The position numbers were made by a program, and so were the translations under genes. Below the pieces are notes generated by a model. That model was given only the letters and a program-made list of their open reading frames with translations, was not told the DNA's origin and searched no databases. DNA of 39,984 bases from a virus: positions 1 to 39,984 of IMG/VR virus record IMGVR_UViG_3300022539_000835. One strand, given 5' to 3'. Positions 831 to 39,573 of the stretch are shown piece by piece. Within the stretch, counting starts at the first letter, position 1. Every line of letters starts with the position of its first letter.

Positions 831-1011
831 CAATATTTTGTGTGCTTCTAATTACTATATTTTTAATCCTGGTAACTTAACCTTCTGTCTAATTTATTAA
901 ACCTAAGTCTATTGTATTATTTTTCACGATACCCACTATAAACGGAACTATTGTACATTTTTATACAATGACTAATGTTCAATAGCGAGTGAACATAAAG
1001 AGAGCTTGAAC
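831..1011 (+). promoter_or_regulatory. Intergenic leader with two small hairpins upstream of the protease
   Basis: An AT-rich stretch without a gene. It holds two inverted repeats next to each other: ATTGTA/TACAAT (950-955 with 964-969) and GTTCA/TGAAC (977-981 with 990-994). The second ends a few bases before the ribosome site of the protease gene, so it could affect its translation. I see no convincing promoter; TTGTAC with TAATGT 16 bases later (951-978) is a weak match only. Confidence 0.35.
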
Positions 1012-1554
1012 ATGATGAAAAGACTTTTAATTGGTGTTAGCTCATTGGTAATATTCCTAAATCTTCTACAAGCTAAGTCTGTGGTTGTTGTAGATAGTGG
1101 CTCTGGAGTATTTATTGGGGAAAGCATGATAATCACAGCGAATCATGTGGTTAGGTTTACTGACAAGCCAGCACTTAGAATCGATGGAAAGAAGGCTATT
1201 GGAAGCATAATGAAACGGCACGTAACGTTAGACATGGCTTTAATAAAGGTTGAAGGTAAGCACGAGTATGCGAAGCTCAGGCTAAATCCCAAGCTTGGTG
1301 AACGTGTTTATGTTATATCTGCTCCAGGGGGTTACTATGAGGATATTGTTGTGTTTGGTAGGATAGCAGGTATTACTGAGAAATGGTTACTGGTGGATGC
1401 AAAGGTAATTGCTGGAAGCTCTGGGGGTGGTGTTTTTGATAGAAGGGGAAGACTACTTGGGATAGTCAGGAGTGGTTATGGCTCAACCAGAATGGGTGAC
1501 TGGCTGCTGACGGCAATACCCGCTAAGACAATCAAAATGTTTTTGGAGGAATAA
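1012..1554 (+). CDS. Secreted trypsin-like serine protease
   Basis: The 180-residue product has an N-terminal signal-type hydrophobic segment (about residues 4-21) and a chymotrypsin-fold protease core. The catalytic triad can be placed: His in TANHVV (about residue 45), Asp in TLDMALIKV (about 74) and Ser in GSSGG (about 137). This matches small trypsin/DegP-type (S1) proteases without a PDZ domain. ATG 1012 was preferred over an in-frame TTG at 1006 because AGAGAG lies at a proper distance from it. It overlaps the next gene by one base. It is probably exported and may cut host surface or envelope proteins during entry or lysis; the substrate is unknown. Confidence 0.85.
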   Translation: MMKRLLIGVSSLVIFLNLLQAKSVVVVDSGSGVFIGESMIITANHVVRFTDKPALRIDGKKAIGSIMKRHVTLDMALIKVEGKHEYAKLRLNPKLGERVYVISAPGGYYEDIVVFGRIAGITEKWLLVDAKVIAGSSGGGVFDRRGRLLGIVRSGYGSTRMGDWLLTAIPAKTIKMFLEE

Positions 1555-14018: not shown

Positions 14019-14516
14019 ATGAATCACGACTGTTTGGTTCCTTACGAGAATACCGAACTTGCAGACAAGGTGCTTTTTGAATTTGATGATGTAGTTAAGT
14101 CTGTGGGTGTAACTTATTTTTTGCTCTTTGGCACAGTTCTGGGTTTTTACCGAGATAAGAGCTACATTCCTCATGATCACGATATAGATGTTGGTATTAG
14201 GTGTAATTTCGAGAAAGGACAAAAACTTCTTGATGAGCTGGAGAAAAAAGGATTTCGTCTACAAGAAAGGAGTATCCTCTATTGGGTTTTTAAAAATAAT
14301 ATTCAAATTGATATATGGCATATGCCTGGTCATGCTTACAATCCTTATACAGACAACCTTGGGGTTTTGATATATAAAGGCAGAGAATTCAATATTCCTT
14401 CTCCTATTGAATTATATTTGCAGGCAATGTACGGAGACTGGAAGACACCTCGGGAGGGAAAAGCGAATGCAGGAGTAGTTAGGGAATGGGCCAGGGGGTA
14501 TCAACGTAAATGGTAA
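14019..14516 (+). CDS. LicD-like phospho-transferase, 165 aa
   Basis: The stretch FLLFGTVLGFYRDKSYIPHD followed by HDIDVGI (about residues 34-60) is the LicD signature: a Gly-Thr-x-Leu-Gly turn and the Asp-x-Asp metal site of a nucleotidyltransferase fold. LicD proteins move phosphocholine or a similar phospho-group from its CDP-carrier onto a surface glycan. The protein is short for the family (usually well above 200), so it may be a minimal catalytic core. It overlaps the cytidylyltransferase gene by seven bases, which would make the CDP-linked donor. Together they suggest phospho-decoration of a glycan. Confidence 0.75.
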   Translation: MNHDCLVPYENTELADKVLFEFDDVVKSVGVTYFLLFGTVLGFYRDKSYIPHDHDIDVGIRCNFEKGQKLLDELEKKGFRLQERSILYWVFKNNIQIDIWHMPGHAYNPYTDNLGVLIYKGREFNIPSPIELYLQAMYGDWKTPREGKANAGVVREWARGYQRKW

Positions 14517-14944
14517 CCATAGTAGCTACTTTTGGAGTCTGGGATCTCTTTCATGTGGGGCATCTTAATTTCTTAGAAAAGGCTAAAGATCTGGGGCATC
14601 TTCTTGTTGTGGGAGTCGCAAGCGATAAGATCGTCGCAATCCATAAAGGAAGGATACCTGTTGTTTCATGTGAAGATAGACAAAGAATTATAAAAGCCCT
14701 TAGATGTGCTGATATAGTTGTCCCATATTCTAATGAGGATTTTACCGATATATTAGAACAATTACATATAGATATTTTAGCAGTGGGAGAATATTGGGGT
14801 AATCTTAAAGAGCATGAAAAAATCAAAGATTATATACTAAAAAGAGGCAAAATTACAACTATACCATATACCAGAAGTATTTCCAGTAAAGAAGTAAGAC
14901 AACGACTTTTTGATCGTCTATATAGGACAGAAAGTGAATATTAA
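14510..14944 (+). CDS. TagD-like cytidylyltransferase, 144 aa
   Basis: The product has the cytidylyltransferase signatures: GVWDLFHVGHLNFL (HxGH at about 15-18), KGRIPVVSCEDRQRII (about 46-61) and RSISSKEVR (about 122-130), in place of the RTEGIST motif. Length matches glycerol-3-phosphate cytidylyltransferase (TagD, about 130 residues). These enzymes make CDP-glycerol, CDP-choline or related CDP-alcohols from CTP. The overlap with the LicD gene points to a donor-transferase pair. Which alcohol phosphate is used cannot be told from the sequence. Confidence 0.85.
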   Translation: MVTIVATFGVWDLFHVGHLNFLEKAKDLGHLLVVGVASDKIVAIHKGRIPVVSCEDRQRIIKALRCADIVVPYSNEDFTDILEQLHIDILAVGEYWGNLKEHEKIKDYILKRGKITTIPYTRSISSKEVRQRLFDRLYRTESEY

Positions 14945-15506
14945 GGGGAATAATAAAAGTCCCAGTAGAAACCTCTATGATTTTTCAAGAACTGATTTTA
15001 AAAGCATGGAGGAACTAAGGGGTAACTTGGTCAACCGAAATTGGCCAGGAATTGAATCTTGTGCTGATATTCTTTTTGGTCTGACTGTATGCTTAAAAGC
15101 TAAATTGATATTTGAAATCGGAACAGGTGGGTTATGGTCAACTCAATGTTTTTTGCATGGCCTGGAAATTACTGATGGGAAAATAGTTAGCTGTGATATT
15201 ATTAAAAGATTTAAAGATTTTTCTCATCCAAGATTGCAATTTATAAATAAACCTTCATACGAAATAGCTAAGACTTGGAAACTGCCCATAGATATTTTGT
15301 TCATCGATGGCTATCATCAAAAAGAAGCTGTCAAGCAAGACTATGAATTATTTTCTCCTTTTGTTGAACCAAAAAAGTTGATAATTTTTCACGATACTAA
15401 CCATCCAGTTTTTCCTGGGGCAAGAAAAGTAGTAAAAGAAATTCAAGGACCGAAAATAGTCTTTGAAGAATATCCAGGATTAACTATTCTTCAGAAGGTG
15501 ATTTGA
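14934..15506 (+). CDS. SAM-dependent methyltransferase, about 190 aa
   Basis: The fold is class I methyltransferase: IFEIGTGGLWSTQCFL (motif I, about residues 60-75), an acidic strand KIVSCDI, then IDILFIDGYHQKEAVKQDY and LIIFHDT, as in the Methyltransf_24 group that often modifies sugars or small molecules. The start is unclear: GTG 14934 with a weak AGGA, or TTG 14910; both overlap the cytidylyltransferase gene. It is inside the glycan module, so O-methylation of a sugar is a reasonable guess. Confidence 0.75.
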   Translation: MNIKGNNKSPSRNLYDFSRTDFKSMEELRGNLVNRNWPGIESCADILFGLTVCLKAKLIFEIGTGGLWSTQCFLHGLEITDGKIVSCDIIKRFKDFSHPRLQFINKPSYEIAKTWKLPIDILFIDGYHQKEAVKQDYELFSPFVEPKKLIIFHDTNHPVFPGARKVVKEIQGPKIVFEEYPGLTILQKVI

Positions 15507-16234
15507 TGGTTAAAAACTTAGTTAGCATTATTATCCCTGTTCGCTCAAGGGTTGAAAAGTTATTAAAACTAATTTATTTAATACGAAAGAACACTCACTA
15601 TCCACGCTATGAGATTATTGTGGTAGTTGATGAGGATGACCGTAAGATTCAGGGTTTGATCCATGATGAACTAGCTGATATTGTTAATTGGAGTATTATG
15701 GAGCGGGATGGTTATGTGCACAAGCTAAATGCAGGTTTTAAGTTTGCTAAAGGAGAATATCTTCAGGTCTTCGGGGATGATGTTGAGCCTCAGGAGAACT
15801 GGCTTACCAATGCCGTTTCCTGTTTCAAAAAGGCTTTTCCCGATGGGATTGGTGTTCTTGCTATGGACGATGGTCAATATAGGAGAAAGCTGGCTATTCA
15901 TCCCTTTGTTTCTCGTAAATGGATTGACAGCTATCAACATGGCAAGTGGTTTCAGTGGCCCGAGTATATTCATTGGCATGGTGATTTGGAATTGACCCTG
16001 GTTGCCAAAGCTATGAAGAAATTCGTCTACTGTCCCAAAGCTCGTGTTCTCCATGTAAGACCCAATGTTCAGGAAAGAGATCCCCAGTGGTGGTATGTGC
16101 ATATGAAGTTCTGGACTAGAGATTCTTCTATTTTTGAAGCGAGGGGACAGAGAGGATTCCCCGAGTATGGTCCAAGAAAAGTTAAGCTGGAGAAGACTGA
16201 GATTGCGAAAGCTCTAGCGGAGGCAAGGTCTTGA
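15506..16234 (+). CDS. Family 2-type glycosyltransferase (GT-A), 242 aa
   Basis: The N-terminus LVSIIIPVRSR, then YEIIVVVDEDD and HKLNAGFKFAKGEYLQVFGDD (acidic metal site at about 90-92), is the standard layout of inverting GT-A glycosyltransferases. ATG 15506 overlaps the previous stop (TGATG). The later part (EYIHWHGDLEL and a basic region) probably holds acceptor contacts. It would add a sugar from a nucleotide donor to a glycan, host surface or virion; the acceptor is unknown. Confidence 0.85.
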   Translation: MVKNLVSIIIPVRSRVEKLLKLIYLIRKNTHYPRYEIIVVVDEDDRKIQGLIHDELADIVNWSIMERDGYVHKLNAGFKFAKGEYLQVFGDDVEPQENWLTNAVSCFKKAFPDGIGVLAMDDGQYRRKLAIHPFVSRKWIDSYQHGKWFQWPEYIHWHGDLELTLVAKAMKKFVYCPKARVLHVRPNVQERDPQWWYVHMKFWTRDSSIFEARGQRGFPEYGPRKVKLEKTEIAKALAEARS

Positions 16235-16983
16235 AAGCCTTAAAATTCTCGAAAAAGTTAGCGCAGTTACGGTCATCTAAAATTTTCATTCATACACCTC
16301 TATATGAGGGGTTTCATGGTAAGTCTTCAATGGCTAGAGAAGATTTGATTGGTGGCTCTTCCTATAAACTTGCCCGAGGAACTTCTATTGGAACCAGGAT
16401 TGATAGAGCTAGAGTCAGCCTTGCTCGTGGTTTTTTAAAGACTGAGTGTGATTATATGCTCTGTATTGATGGTGATATGCTGGGTTATACTCCTCAATTA
16501 TTAGACGAATTTGTTTTACATAATAAATCTATTATCAGTGCTCTTTATTTTAGTAAAACTTATCCCTATAAGCCAGTAATCTTTTCTCAACCGGAAGGTT
16601 ATGGCACTTCTTTTTATCGGATTCATGCCTGGCCCGAAGGAAAGATGATAGAGGTTGATGGCACTGGCCTTGGTTTTATGTTGATAAAACGCAAAGTTAT
16701 CGAAAAAGTAGGGGTAGGTGCTTTCATGCCAGCACTAATTCCAGTTCCTAAGTATGAGGAGAGCAAGATGGGTACTGGTGATATAAATTGGATTGGGGGA
16801 GACCTCGGTTTTACTCAGGAGGCCAGGAAAGCTGGTTTTAAGGTTTGGGTTGATACTTCTCGGGTAGTTCTTCACCTCGGCGTTGCATCCATTGGCAGGG
16901 AGCATTGGGAGATGACTAAAGAGCTTCAGAGGCAACAAGAACAAGAAGTAAAAAAGAGGGGGGTTGACACCTGCAAAAAATAG
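16231..16983 (+). CDS. Second GT-A glycosyltransferase, 250 aa
   Basis: CDYMLCIDGDM (DxD-type site, about residues 73-83), the later GTGLGFMLIKRKVIEKVG and a GGDLGFTQEARKAGFKVWVD segment fit GT-A enzymes common in phages and distinct from the first one. The TTG start is backed by GGAGG eight bases upstream and overlaps the previous stop. The last codons contain the rightward promoter at 16964-16991. Two different transferases in a row suggest at least two sugars or two steps. Confidence 0.8.
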   Translation: MKALKFSKKLAQLRSSKIFIHTPLYEGFHGKSSMAREDLIGGSSYKLARGTSIGTRIDRARVSLARGFLKTECDYMLCIDGDMLGYTPQLLDEFVLHNKSIISALYFSKTYPYKPVIFSQPEGYGTSFYRIHAWPEGKMIEVDGTGLGFMLIKRKVIEKVGVGAFMPALIPVPKYEESKMGTGDINWIGGDLGFTQEARKAGFKVWVDTSRVVLHLGVASIGREHWEMTKELQRQQEQEVKKRGVDTCKK

Positions 16984-16991
16984 TGTATTAT
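16964..16991 (+). promoter_or_regulatory. Rightward promoter inside the end of the glycosyltransferase gene
   Basis: TTGACA (16964-16969), 16 bases, TATTAT (16986-16991). The -35 is perfect and the spacing equals that of the leftward promoters. It should drive the two small genes at 17023-17324, which end in a terminator. Confidence 0.7.
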
Positions 16992-17022
16992 GTATAATAG
17001 TAGTGAAGTTGAAAAGAACTTA

Positions 17023-17151
17023 ATGGCGCAATTCTCTGAGGCTCTGAAGATTGTCTTAAAAGCAGGCTTTGGTAGAATTGAAGTAATTATAGATGAGGAT
17101 AAGGGAATTTATGATGTTATTCCCTCTCCCCGGATTCGGGTAAAGAGTTGA
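17023..17151 (+). CDS. Small protein, 42 aa
   Basis: The frame could also start at ATG 16990 (53 residues), but that codon overlaps the promoter -10, so ATG 17023 is chosen. The product is alpha/beta (FSEALKIVLKAG, then RIEVIIDEDKGIYDVIP) and looks like a small folded domain. No strong ribosome site. It is coupled to the next gene by overlap (TTGA). Unknown. Confidence 0.5.
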   Translation: MAQFSEALKIVLKAGFGRIEVIIDEDKGIYDVIPSPRIRVKS

Positions 17152-17324
17152 AAGCAGACGACATATTTACTTCTGGCAACTTAGTTATTAAGAGTCGTAG
17201 GACTCAACCAGTTGTTAAATATACTATACGTTATCGTGAAGAAAGTATTTGTTTTTGGCTACGTTCAATGCTCTATATTATGGGTATAGCAGCAGTTATT
17301 GCATTTATAATCAGTAAGATTTGA
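17148..17324 (+). CDS. Small protein with C-terminal membrane helix, 58 aa
   Basis: A basic N-terminal half (IKSRRTQPVVKYTIRYR) is followed by a membrane helix (about residues 41-58, MLYIMGIAAVIAFII). The start is TTG overlapping the previous stop. Together with the upstream gene it forms an isolated promoter-to-terminator unit between glycan and packaging modules, the layout of a moron-like cassette. Function unknown, perhaps at the membrane. Confidence 0.5.
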   Translation: MKADDIFTSGNLVIKSRRTQPVVKYTIRYREESICFWLRSMLYIMGIAAVIAFIISKI

Positions 17325-17356: not shown

Positions 17357-17412
17357 GAGCGGTCAATCTTAGCATTCTAAATGTGGAGTGCTATGGTTGG
17401 CCGCTTTTTTTA
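17357..17412 (+). terminator. Rho-independent terminator
   Basis: AGCGGTCAATCTTAGCA pairs with TGCTATGGTTGGCCGCT (allowing G-U pairs), followed by a run of seven T (17405-17411). It closes the two-gene unit 17023-17324. A TTGACA at 17321-17326 upstream lacks a good -10. Confidence 0.8.
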
Positions 17413-17436
17413 TGAATATGCAATTTTGATTCTGTA

Positions 17437-17746
17437 GCGTTTGGGGGAGTCAAACGCATAGCTAAGTAGCCTAGGCAACAACTTAGCTACAGACGAATGG
17501 GGATTCAGCAGTTTATCCTTCGGGATAATGTAGCACGCCATGTGCGTTGTCTGCTTCAGGAGGGGTCTGACAGAAGAACCAGTCTTTATAGTTTATCTTC
17601 GCTTTTACTGAAGTTTAACTATGAACTCCCCGCACTTTTATAACGGGGATAATATGACGTCGGGGGGACGCTCCCGATATTGACCACTAGGCGAGTCCTA
17701 TTGGTTCAAGACGCTCTGCTGTATACAGGCGGCAGGGCGTTTTTTT
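17437..17746 (+). ncRNA. Candidate structured RNA upstream of the small terminase gene
   Basis: No gene fits here, but paired segments are dense: GCGTTTG/CAAACGC (17437-17443 with 17451-17457), TAGCTAAGT/ACTTAGCTA (17459-17467 with 17481-17489), TTATCC-TTCG-GGATAA (17513-17528, a UUCG loop), GCAC/GTGC near 17535, TCCCCG/CGGGGA (17627-17632 with 17644-17649), TCGGG/CCCGA near 17660-17677, and a closing terminator. The stretch is flanked by terminators on both sides. It could be a phage non-coding RNA or a packaging/cos region. No clear promoter is seen just before it. No known RNA family was recognised. Confidence 0.5.
17711..17746 (+). terminator. Strong rho-independent terminator
   Basis: ACGCTCTGCTG (17711-17721) pairs with CGGCAGGGCGT (17730-17740) over 11 positions, including G-U pairs, and is followed by seven T. 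It ends the structured stretch and separates it from the late genes. Confidence 0.9.
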
Positions 17747-17815
17747 ATTATGTGCAGTTTTACGCGGGGAATGTGAACGCAAGATAACGGAGATTCTCGT
17801 TATTAGAGGGGAATT

Positions 17816-20106: not shown

Positions 20107-21081
20107 ATGAGCTATATTGCGTTAAGGCTAGATGGAAACGGATATGCTTCTATTGCCGATGCCTCTCAGGCTGGTCTCGATATGGGCCTGTCTGATTTTA
20201 TGCTTGAGGCGAGGGTAAAATTGACTGTGCCTACTGTCAATCAACCAGAGACATACTCATGTCTTTTCGATAAATATGTAATTACGGGATTGTATGAAGT
20301 TTTCTTGGAAAGCGCAGCTGAAAAAATTTGGTTTAATATTAAGGATGCAGGTCCCTCTGCTCGCGGTCTTGAATGTGCCTCATCTTATATAGATGATCTG
20401 AAATGGCACAATCTAATCTTTGTAGCAGATAGAGACCAAATTACAGGTCTTGAACTGTACATTGATGGTGCTGAGGTTACATATCTTAACCAGCTAGACC
20501 CAACCTCTGTAGGTAGTTTGGATAATAATGCAGTATTTGCGATTGGAGCGACAGGCACTGTGTTTGATTCGAAAATGAATGGCCAAATGGACGAAGTCCG
20601 CGTCTGGAACTTCGGCTATGGTGGACTCCCCGCAGACTACGCTACCTATATAGCCTGGCGAGCAGCAGGACGCAATGTATTTCTTGACATTTCTAATTAC
20701 AGTAGTGGTAGCTGGAATCTATATGCAGACGCAGTGCGAACAGAGTTACATGATGGAGCTGGAACTGTTGCTGGTATGGTGGTAGGGAAAAAATATGGCT
20801 ATGTAACAGCAACTCCCCATACCCTGGATTACACGGGAGGCACGCTGGAGGATAATGGAGTATTCACCGCAACGCATACGACAGGCACGATTGCAAGTGG
20901 AGATGCAAACGACCATGTTCGGCGAGTTGGTTTGGTGGCTAGGTGGAAGTTTGAGGGAAATTATTTAGATGAAGGTTCAAATGATAATGATTTAACTGCG
21001 GGGGGAACGGGAAATGCTTTCCCCACATATACATTAAAACCCCATAAAATAATTTCACCTCTAACGGGATGGTTAAAGTAA
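20107..21081 (+). CDS. Laminin-G/concanavalin-like virion protein, 324 aa
   Basis: The first 170 residues match a LamG jelly roll: YIALRLDGNGYASI at the start, LKWHNLIFVADRDQITGLELYIDG in the middle and GQMDEVRVWNFG at its end. A second, partial LamG-like piece appears near the C-terminus (GLVARWKFEGNYLDE, SNDNDLTAGG). Such domains bind carbohydrate or host surfaces. It may be a receptor-binding or head-decoration protein, placed between terminase and portal rather than with the tail genes. Confidence 0.75.
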   Translation: MSYIALRLDGNGYASIADASQAGLDMGLSDFMLEARVKLTVPTVNQPETYSCLFDKYVITGLYEVFLESAAEKIWFNIKDAGPSARGLECASSYIDDLKWHNLIFVADRDQITGLELYIDGAEVTYLNQLDPTSVGSLDNNAVFAIGATGTVFDSKMNGQMDEVRVWNFGYGGLPADYATYIAWRAAGRNVFLDISNYSSGSWNLYADAVRTELHDGAGTVAGMVVGKKYGYVTATPHTLDYTGGTLEDNGVFTATHTTGTIASGDANDHVRRVGLVARWKFEGNYLDEGSNDNDLTAGGTGNAFPTYTLKPHKIISPLTGWLK

Positions 21082-38461: not shown

Positions 38462-38608
38462 ATGATACAAACATCAAGTAAAAAATCTAAGTTCAAATTT
38501 AAGCCCTCTATGGAGCTATTTTGTCTAAGAGATTTTTTATCCGAGGAGATAGTCAGAAAACTTTTACTCAGGAAGCAAGTTTTACCGAGGAGGAAAAAAG
38601 TAAAATGA
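38462..38608 (+). CDS. Possible small basic protein, 48 aa
   Basis: An ATG follows the previous stop directly (TAG-ATG) and the frame ends with an ATGA overlap on the protease start at 38605. The product is basic (SSKKSKFKFKPS, then LPRRKKVK). Its own ribosome site is absent, so it may depend on coupling. The tidy fit between two genes supports it, but chance cannot be excluded. Confidence 0.35.
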   Translation: MIQTSSKKSKFKFKPSMELFCLRDFLSEEIVRKLLLRKQVLPRRKKVK

Positions 38609-39573
38609 AAAAAGACAAGTTTCACCTGCCACCCTACAGGGTGGAGAAAGTGCCAATGATGCTTGCAGAGGAAGAGCTTTCTAACTGGGGCATCAGGCGC
38701 ATGAGGATCAAGGAAATATGGGAAAAGGGAATTACAGGCAAGAGTGTGCGGGTTGCAGTGCTGGATACCGGACTGCCTGTTCATGAGGACATCGTAGTTG
38801 AAAAGTCAGTTAATTTCAGTGATGACCCTGTTGAAGATAGTAATGGACATAGCACTTGGGTAACGGGTTGTATTGGTGCTGATGGAAGGTTCAAAGGGAT
38901 TGCTCCGAAATGTAAACTCTATATTGCGAAGATTCTGGGAGATGATGGTTCGGGAGATTGGAGTTGGCTAGAGAAGGGACTGTTATGGGCCGAGCAGGAA
39001 GAGTGTGAAGTAGTTAATATCAGTGCTGGGGGAGATTATAGTGGTGACAGGATTCAGCCCATTTTGAAGAGGATGGCTGATAAGGGAATCATCGTAGTCT
39101 GTGCTGGAGGGAATGCAGGGGATCTGTTGTTCTTCCCAGCTAATGATAAGCATACCCTCGCTATAGGAGCTATTGACGAAAAGGGAGAAAGACCGGATTG
39201 GAGTAATTTTGGCCCTAGACTTGTAGTGATGGCTCCAGGAGTAGATTTACTTGGGTGCTGGCTGAATGACGAATATGCCAAGGTAAGCGGTACTAGTATG
39301 GCCAGTCCAATGGCGGCTGGTGTTCTATCATTGGAAGAGCAAGAGCACGCCCTAAGTCTTACTGAGGCTATTATTCGATTTGTGTTCACTTCAGAAGATA
39401 TTGGAAACACTGGATGGCAGCCTGATAGTGGCTGGGGTTCAGTCGCTGTGCATGAATTTATGCTATTGGAAAAAGTTAGTTTGAAACTGGATATGAATTG
39501 GCTAATGAGTCTGGCCATGTTCATAGCTGCCTACTATATAGGCGATGAGGAATATAGAACTGAAGGAGGGTAA
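38605..39573 (+). CDS. Subtilisin-like serine protease, 322 aa
   Basis: The subtilase triad can be seen: Asp in VAVLDTGLP (about 54), His in NGHSTWVTG (about 82) and Ser in GTSMASPMAAG (about 231), plus the oxyanion Asn in AGGN (about 170). There is no signal peptide; a hydrophobic stretch near the end (WLMSLAMFIAAYYIG, 299-313) may anchor it. Start ATG 38605 fits the ATGA overlap, with GAGGAGG somewhat far upstream; TTG 38521 is an alternative. Located beside the XhlA-like and secreted proteins, it may help lysis or surface escape, or mature a virion protein. Confidence 0.9.
   Translation: MKKDKFHLPPYRVEKVPMMLAEEELSNWGIRRMRIKEIWEKGITGKSVRVAVLDTGLPVHEDIVVEKSVNFSDDPVEDSNGHSTWVTGCIGADGRFKGIAPKCKLYIAKILGDDGSGDWSWLEKGLLWAEQEECEVVNISAGGDYSGDRIQPILKRMADKGIIVVCAGGNAGDLLFFPANDKHTLAIGAIDEKGERPDWSNFGPRLVVMAPGVDLLGCWLNDEYAKVSGTSMASPMAAGVLSLEEQEHALSLTEAIIRFVFTSEDIGNTGWQPDSGWGSVAVHEFMLLEKVSLKLDMNWLMSLAMFIAAYYIGDEEYRTEGG

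Follow-up and report, generated by a model that had tools for sequence, protein, structure and literature searches.

What do five overlapping genes, encoding a LicD-type transferase, a cytidylyltransferase (CytT), a methyltransferase and two glycosyltransferases (GTs), do for the phage that carries them? The genes lie at positions 14,019 to 16,983 of IMG/VR virus record IMGVR_UViG_3300022539_000835, whose entire 39,984 bases are the window analysed here. We found them as five consecutive open reading frames (ORFs) on the plus strand (Table 1), overlapping in order by 7, 11, 1-4 and 4 bases, which confirms the module with overlaps of 1-11 bases that an earlier sequence-only reading had described. 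That observation stands; its interpretation, that the genes may make and attach a cytidine diphosphate (CDP)-activated phospho-group to a glycan, is only partly supported, and we widen it to a recurrent phage phospho-group tailoring module using LicD/FKRP chemistry. It is very probable that these enzymes use cytidine triphosphate (CTP) to activate a small molecule carrying phosphate (X) and then link it to a sugar chain; to the reading that this is a phage tailoring module, with a virion protein glycan as its likeliest acceptor, we give a probability of about 0.55.

Gene overlap by itself is ordinary in phages; what beats chance is the recurrence of LicD together with CytT, a pair that turns up across many phages not related to one another. 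IMG/VR was scanned independently with a LicD alignment (57 loci) and a CytT alignment (80 loci), and the loci were dereplicated by clustering at 80% identity before pairs were counted. A CytT was present in the locus in 27 of the 42 LicD-picked clusters, and a LicD in 37 of the 51 CytT-picked ones, while hidden Markov model searches found neither in any of 56 control viral loci (539 kb) chosen at random with an arbitrary 16-mer. The unfused pairs (20 LicD-picked and 29 CytT-picked) were all on the same strand, 10 and 14 of them, respectively, overlapping or at most 100 nt apart, and the two proteins were fused in a further 7 and 8 dereplicated clusters. Pfam models run on 34 whole records chosen for bearing the module found PF04991 in 31 and PF01467 in 28. 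The computation supports the functional coupling of LicD and CytT in phages.

The fusions extend the unit beyond this pair. Single chains of about 860 residues with the order GT2-LicD-CytT-GT2 are encoded in loci L045, L051 and L057 and their relatives, L057 adding one N-terminal GT2 domain, and loci L003 and L005 encode GT2-LicD fusions of about 465 residues. The window LicD and CytT rank among the closest to those of L003 and L005, and the window GT2 is homologous to the GT2 half of the GT2-LicD fusions in L003, L005 and L113 (phmmer E 4e-39 to 8e-43; 4e-39 to 3e-40 for L003 and L005). Because its GT2, LicD and CytT all match theirs, the window looks like a split form of the L003/L005 arrangement. 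Other architectures were also seen. In the fusions L034:5152-7752 and L038:2050-4617 the CytT domain has TPRH or DKER in place of HxGH and is probably inactive; L013 and L046 encode GT2-LicD-GT2 proteins with no CytT domain; and at L002:4204-4980 the CytT carries at its N-terminus a fused domain of about 130 residues that appears to span the membrane, and the gene is followed by an epimerase-like gene and then by LicD.

The window LicD passes the Pfam gathering score for PF04991 (33.3 bits; cut-off 22.6), with an alignment that covers residues 27-60 only. Its AlphaFold2 (AF2) model (pLDDT 89.9) contains a complete catalytic domain of the nucleotidyltransferase (NTase) fold, and comparison with the PDB by Foldseek and VIA-align placed FKRP first (E 2e-7; Z 14.3, 143 aligned residues, root-mean-square deviation 2.9), the matched part being the CDP-ribitol phosphotransferase domain of the human protein. 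Since this domain is complete, the short length is not a sign of decay. The protein had been called unusually short, which is true beside cellular relatives of about 300 residues and not beside stand-alone phage relatives, mostly of about 140-220, among which its length is normal. It carries the motifs G38-T39-x-L41-G42 and D53-H-D55-I-D57 and a third aspartate, D98. FKRP Asp360, 362, 364 and 416 are essential for activity (PMC6965139), and all four have counterparts in the window protein, namely D53, D55, D57 and D98. Across 47 phage LicD relatives, D55, D57, G38, G42 and R45 are invariant and position 53 is D or E. With human FKRP, Mycoplasma fermentans Mf1 and the pneumococcal and Haemophilus LicD proteins (PF04991) the window LicD shares the NTase fold, GTxLG, DxDxD with the third Asp, and a C-terminal YL..YG; it differs in being reduced to the catalytic core, in being phage-borne, and in overlapping (in relatives, being fused to) its own CytT or GTs.

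The fold itself is also that of ANT(2'')-Ia, the structural runner-up (Z 12.3), LnuA (11.7) and MenT1 (11.4), so that the short "LicD" could be another NTase, of the antibiotic type or a MenT/AbiEii-like toxin, next to an enzyme making an unrelated nucleotide conjugate. We hold this to be the least probable of the explanations considered: a profile built from the 47 relatives found FKRP at E 2.8e-16 with the next PDB match at 0.0018, FKRP also leads by Z, the PF04991 cut-off is passed, and in relatives LicD is fused to or beside CytT and GT2. A toxin or defence role for the module was rejected, PADLOC having given no match.

No cultured phage was identified as a carrier, since tblastn with the window LicD and that of L036 against 50,697 named phages gave nothing at E 1e-3, a method weak for such divergent proteins. 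The window had no matches to named phages at the DNA level, and a terminase scan found no close relatives of the window phage. The closest relatives of the LicD-CytT pair in the genome collection were on two contigs of a Bathyarchaeota metagenome-assembled genome (L061 and L062), where a 142-residue LicD overlaps a CytT with HxGI, not HxGH, inside a nucleotide-sugar gene cluster; the contigs may be of viral origin and have been placed in an archaeal bin.

The window CytT scores 60.8 bits against PF01467 (cut-off 21) and retains an intact HxGH (H15-V-G17-H18), K46, R57, W96 and an ISS motif; HxGH, K46 and R57 are conserved among 30 phage CytT sequences. It shares with TagD/TarD, ECT, Fom1 CyTase and the HldE C-domain the HxGH, the KGR-type lysine, the arginine, GxxW and the S/T motif near the C-terminus, and its PDB matches (ECT, GCT, Fom1 CyTase, CCT and an HldE-like chain) are not told apart by substrate in a sequence search. 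It falls below the NCBIfam equivalog cut-offs both for TagD (TIGR01518; 65.3 versus 165.4 bits) and for HldE (TIGR02199; 82.9 versus 181.5 bits), and in the tree it joins the phage CytTs of L003 and L005 (94/93) in a group with no characterised reference. We rejected membership in TagD on cut-off and placement, and "TagD-like" was too specific a name; the other family assignments of the sequence-only reading hold, those of LicD, methyltransferase and GT2 by Pfam cut-offs and that of the second GT-A enzyme by its modelled fold. Strong support for its proposal that the module both makes the donor and transfers it comes from the conserved catalytic residues (47 LicD and 30 CytT sequences), the two-way co-occurrence and the fusions; non-conservation of the active sites in relatives had been named as what would speak against it, and on the sequence side the residues of both enzymes proved conserved.

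Several CytT lineages partner LicD in the tree, and the relatives of the window module appear to use different donors. For L043 and L050 the CytT branches with TagD/TarD (100/99), which points to CDP-glycerol as donor, and for L016, L028 and L044 (IMG/VR 3300033153_009691, 3300024433_001125 and 3300028837_001285) it branches with Fom1, a hydroxyethylphosphonate cytidylyltransferase (99/95). These last three contigs all bear phage terminase and/or major head genes and all encode a phosphoenolpyruvate (PEP) mutase (PF13714, E 1e-47 to 1e-50) with the motif EDKxxxxxNS in 3/3. L044 and L028 encode split thiamine pyrophosphate (TPP) enzyme subunits, which in L044 most resemble phosphonopyruvate decarboxylase; both also have an alcohol dehydrogenase nearest to the phosphonate iron alcohol dehydrogenase (Fe-ADH). 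L016 has the TPP subunits, and no Fe-ADH was seen within the stretch read. The phosphonate genes and LicDs follow the major head gene and precede a neck-like gene, so named by resemblance only and without a PHROG match. It is plausible that the three phages encode a cytidine monophosphate (CMP)-hydroxyethylphosphonate pathway, which stays a proposal because none of its NCBIfam matches passes the equivalog cut-off. The logic of CMP activation for transfer is that of bacterial phosphonate tailoring (Ppm-Ppd-CytT; Fom1, PntC; PMC6697681), from which the phage versions differ in coming with a LicD. The window has no PEP mutase, and its X would therefore have to come from the host.

The methyltransferase and GT2 of the window pass their Pfam cut-offs (Methyltransf_24, PF13578, 50.8 versus 26.3 bits; Glycos_transf_2, PF00535, 45.5 versus 23.3 bits). 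The fifth gene product matched only phage glycosyltransferase PHROGs and, below threshold, Anp1 in family searches; its AF2 model (pLDDT 68) has a GT-A fold, with matches to LH3 (Z 16.9), STIV A197 (16.1), mimivirus R699 (15.9) and Mnn9 (15.5). A single-sequence scan found no relatives of this gene, and an alignment-based scan instead gave hundreds. Among named phages, its distant relatives include mycobacteriophage glycosyltransferases such as Wanda gp15. Members of its wider family abound in viral contigs and sit by RecT-, YqaJ- and RusA-like genes (80 fetched loci, L243-L322), a neighbourhood that would suit DNA hypermodification, in which GTs and the NTase would alter phage DNA bases and protect the genome from restriction; phage GTs are able to modify DNA, according to work cited in PMC12619734. 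We consider this very unlikely here, as a C5 DNA methylase and a thymidylate synthase are absent from the window and occur in only 5/34 and 3/34 records of the set, and the LicD fold and its nearest verified relatives, FKRP and Mf1, act on glycans or glycolipids. A Tet/JBP search had no match in the records, with control genomes equally silent.

Where the modified glycan would sit is suggested by the genes around the module. In relatives the flanking genes encode tail terminator, major tail, tape measure, head-tail adaptor, Neck1 and minor head proteins, and the fusions adjoin tail terminator or major tail genes. The nearest structural gene was on the module's strand in 43/43 loci having one (loci not dereplicated), and the GT genes of relatives often lie in or beside the structural block; the window module is on the strand of the terminase gene and directly upstream of it, but behind a terminator. 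Tyrosine integrases were found in 3/34 records and serine recombinases in 0/34, the window has neither, and no GtrA flippase was found in 37 records. A GtrABC-type lysogenic seroconversion cassette was rejected on the lack of GtrA in these records and of an integrase in the window. Strongly hydrophobic stretches are lacking in the CytT, the methyltransferase and both GTs; in LicD a single borderline one falls within the fold. The mycobacteriophage Wanda offers a likeness: its gp15-gp20 form a GT-kinase-methyltransferase-GT block of overlapping genes between capsid and head-tail genes, and the fifth window gene resembles gp15. No LicD or CytT is annotated in that block, and the addition of a phospho-group by the window module is what we infer. 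For the mycobacteriophages Che8 and Rita, work cited in PMC11256854 describes glycans on capsid proteins.

The same chemistry could instead act on host teichoic acid, lipopolysaccharide or another envelope glycan, altering receptors or blocking superinfection. LicD is known above all from surface glycans, the cellular relatives of the window LicD occur in bacteria, some of them accompanied by a CytT, some viral loci hold NeuB or nucleotide-sugar genes, and the window module ends in its own terminator. Moreover, a licD adjoining a nucleotidyltransferase gene has been reported in Flandersviridae and read as superinfection exclusion (Benler et al. 2021, PMC8008677); that neighbour is ispD, of another cytidylyltransferase family, the pair is located in the replication module, and ispD was tied there to isoprenoids, with no CDP-alcohol pathway proposed. 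Nevertheless, we regard host-surface remodelling as unlikely: integrases are few and GtrA is lacking in the records searched, the enzymes are soluble, no flippase, polymerase or lipid-carrier enzyme is recognised in the module, and structural genes often adjoin it. Between host remodelling and virion decoration, both of which had been put forward, decoration is the better fit, and by comparison of gene contexts we favour virion glycans over the host surface or DNA as the target because of the same-strand structural neighbours, the few integrases, the lack of GtrA, the soluble enzymes and the comparable GT block of Wanda. Taken part by part, activation to CMP-X with transfer by LicD is highly probable, a glycan as the acceptor of phospho-X is probable, and we put the virion as its site at even odds.

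Some of our results weigh against virion decoration by a five-enzyme pathway. D98 is substituted in 7/47 LicD relatives (D in 40), and the window CytT is grouped with no characterised enzyme and assigned to no one substrate, whether glycerol-3-phosphate, phosphocholine or ribitol-5-phosphate, the candidates of the sequence-only reading. None of the 80 fetched loci of the fifth gene's wider family has a LicD, their neighbours being recombination genes, which leaves GT2-LicD-CytT as the only part of the module that recurs together. The structural-gene panel was drawn partly from the scored loci, and 24/67 larger loci (the sets overlap) had no match to it. In the window, two structured elements, a strong terminator (17357-17412, z -8.0) and the stretch at 17411-17752 (z -4.2), part the module from the terminase genes, for which reason shared late transcription is not supported there.

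On the tailoring reading, CytT would use CTP to activate a small phospho-alcohol or phosphonate, giving CDP-X or CMP-X, and the short LicD, through its Asp/Mg centre, would cleave the activated bond and transfer phospho-X to a sugar hydroxyl. The GT2 and GT-A enzymes would assemble the sugar chain that receives it, the methyltransferase may cap or alter one of its sugars, and the product would be a glycan on a virion protein, made in the cytosol late in infection. In this scheme we infer X, CTP as the nucleotide, the sugars, the virion protein acceptor and the timing. Our broadest proposal, held tentatively and at less than even odds, is that a portable set of enzymes, borne by many unrelated phages, produces phospho- or phosphonyl-groups activated with CMP and places them on glycans of the phages' own virions; in some phages it would be one GT2-LicD-CytT-GT2 chain, and others would add the full synthesis of hydroxyethylphosphonate from genes of their own. 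If true, this would be a previously undescribed, phosphodiester-decorated virion glycan coat; charged or zwitterionic groups would join the known virion modifications, and adsorption, particle stability and recognition could be affected. The single-chain enzymes are a defined system for donor choice by LicD proteins, which is relevant to FKRP. The chemistry itself is known from LicD and FKRP; the part that appears new is the self-contained, phage-borne module of donor synthesis and transferase, with its fusions and phosphonate version. A literature search of partial coverage returned one report of a phage licD (PMC8008677) and none on LicD-CytT modules, their fusions or a phage PEP mutase, and because of that coverage the novelty is provisional.

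Table 1. Genes and signals of the window module, and single-chain fusions in related loci (window positions unless a locus is named)
Feature	Position	Strand	Basis or remark
LicD/FKRP-type phosphotransferase, short, 165 aa	14019..14516	+	PF04991, AF2 model, FKRP match
CTP_transf_like cytidylyltransferase (CytT), 144 aa	14510..14944	+	PF01467, PDB matches, tree
Class I S-adenosylmethionine methyltransferase, Methyltransf_24	14934..15506	+	PF13578 over cut-off
GT2 glycosyltransferase	15503..16234	+	PF00535 over cut-off, phmmer
GT-A-fold glycosyltransferase, IDGDM (DxD-like) motif	16231..16983	+	PHROG matches, AF2 fold
Two small ORFs: 53 aa; 58 aa with C-terminal hydrophobic stretch	16990..17324	+	Module membership uncertain
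Strong intrinsic-terminator hairpin closing the module's transcription unit	17357..17412	+	-32.7 kcal/mol, z -8.0, then seven T
GT2-LicD-CytT-GT2 fusions	L045:5197-7794, L051:5146-7731, L057:4432-7728		About 500-560 nt upstream of major tail gene

Two starts within the module have alternatives. For the methyltransferase, GTG at 14934, with AGGA ahead of it, is likelier than TTG at 14910, which would lengthen the overlap with the CytT gene from 11 to 35 bases, and the GT2 could also start at ATG 15506, placed after AAGG. Third-position GC is 0.21-0.26 in the CytT and methyltransferase genes (14510-15506) versus about 0.5 in the terminase genes, hinting at separate acquisition. The two small ORFs that follow the module had no family matches. 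The stretch at 17411-17752 is non-coding, lies between two terminators and folds better than 100/100 shuffles, with no Rfam match, and is possibly a structured phage RNA. The terminase, portal and major head genes sit rightward of the module, and between the terminase and portal genes a protein with a Concanavalin/Laminin_G_3 domain (20107-21081) is a possible glycan-binding virion protein. Finally, a trypsin-like protease gene lies near the left end of the window (1006-1554), and a gene near the right end (38521-39573) matches a phage "protease" PHROG.

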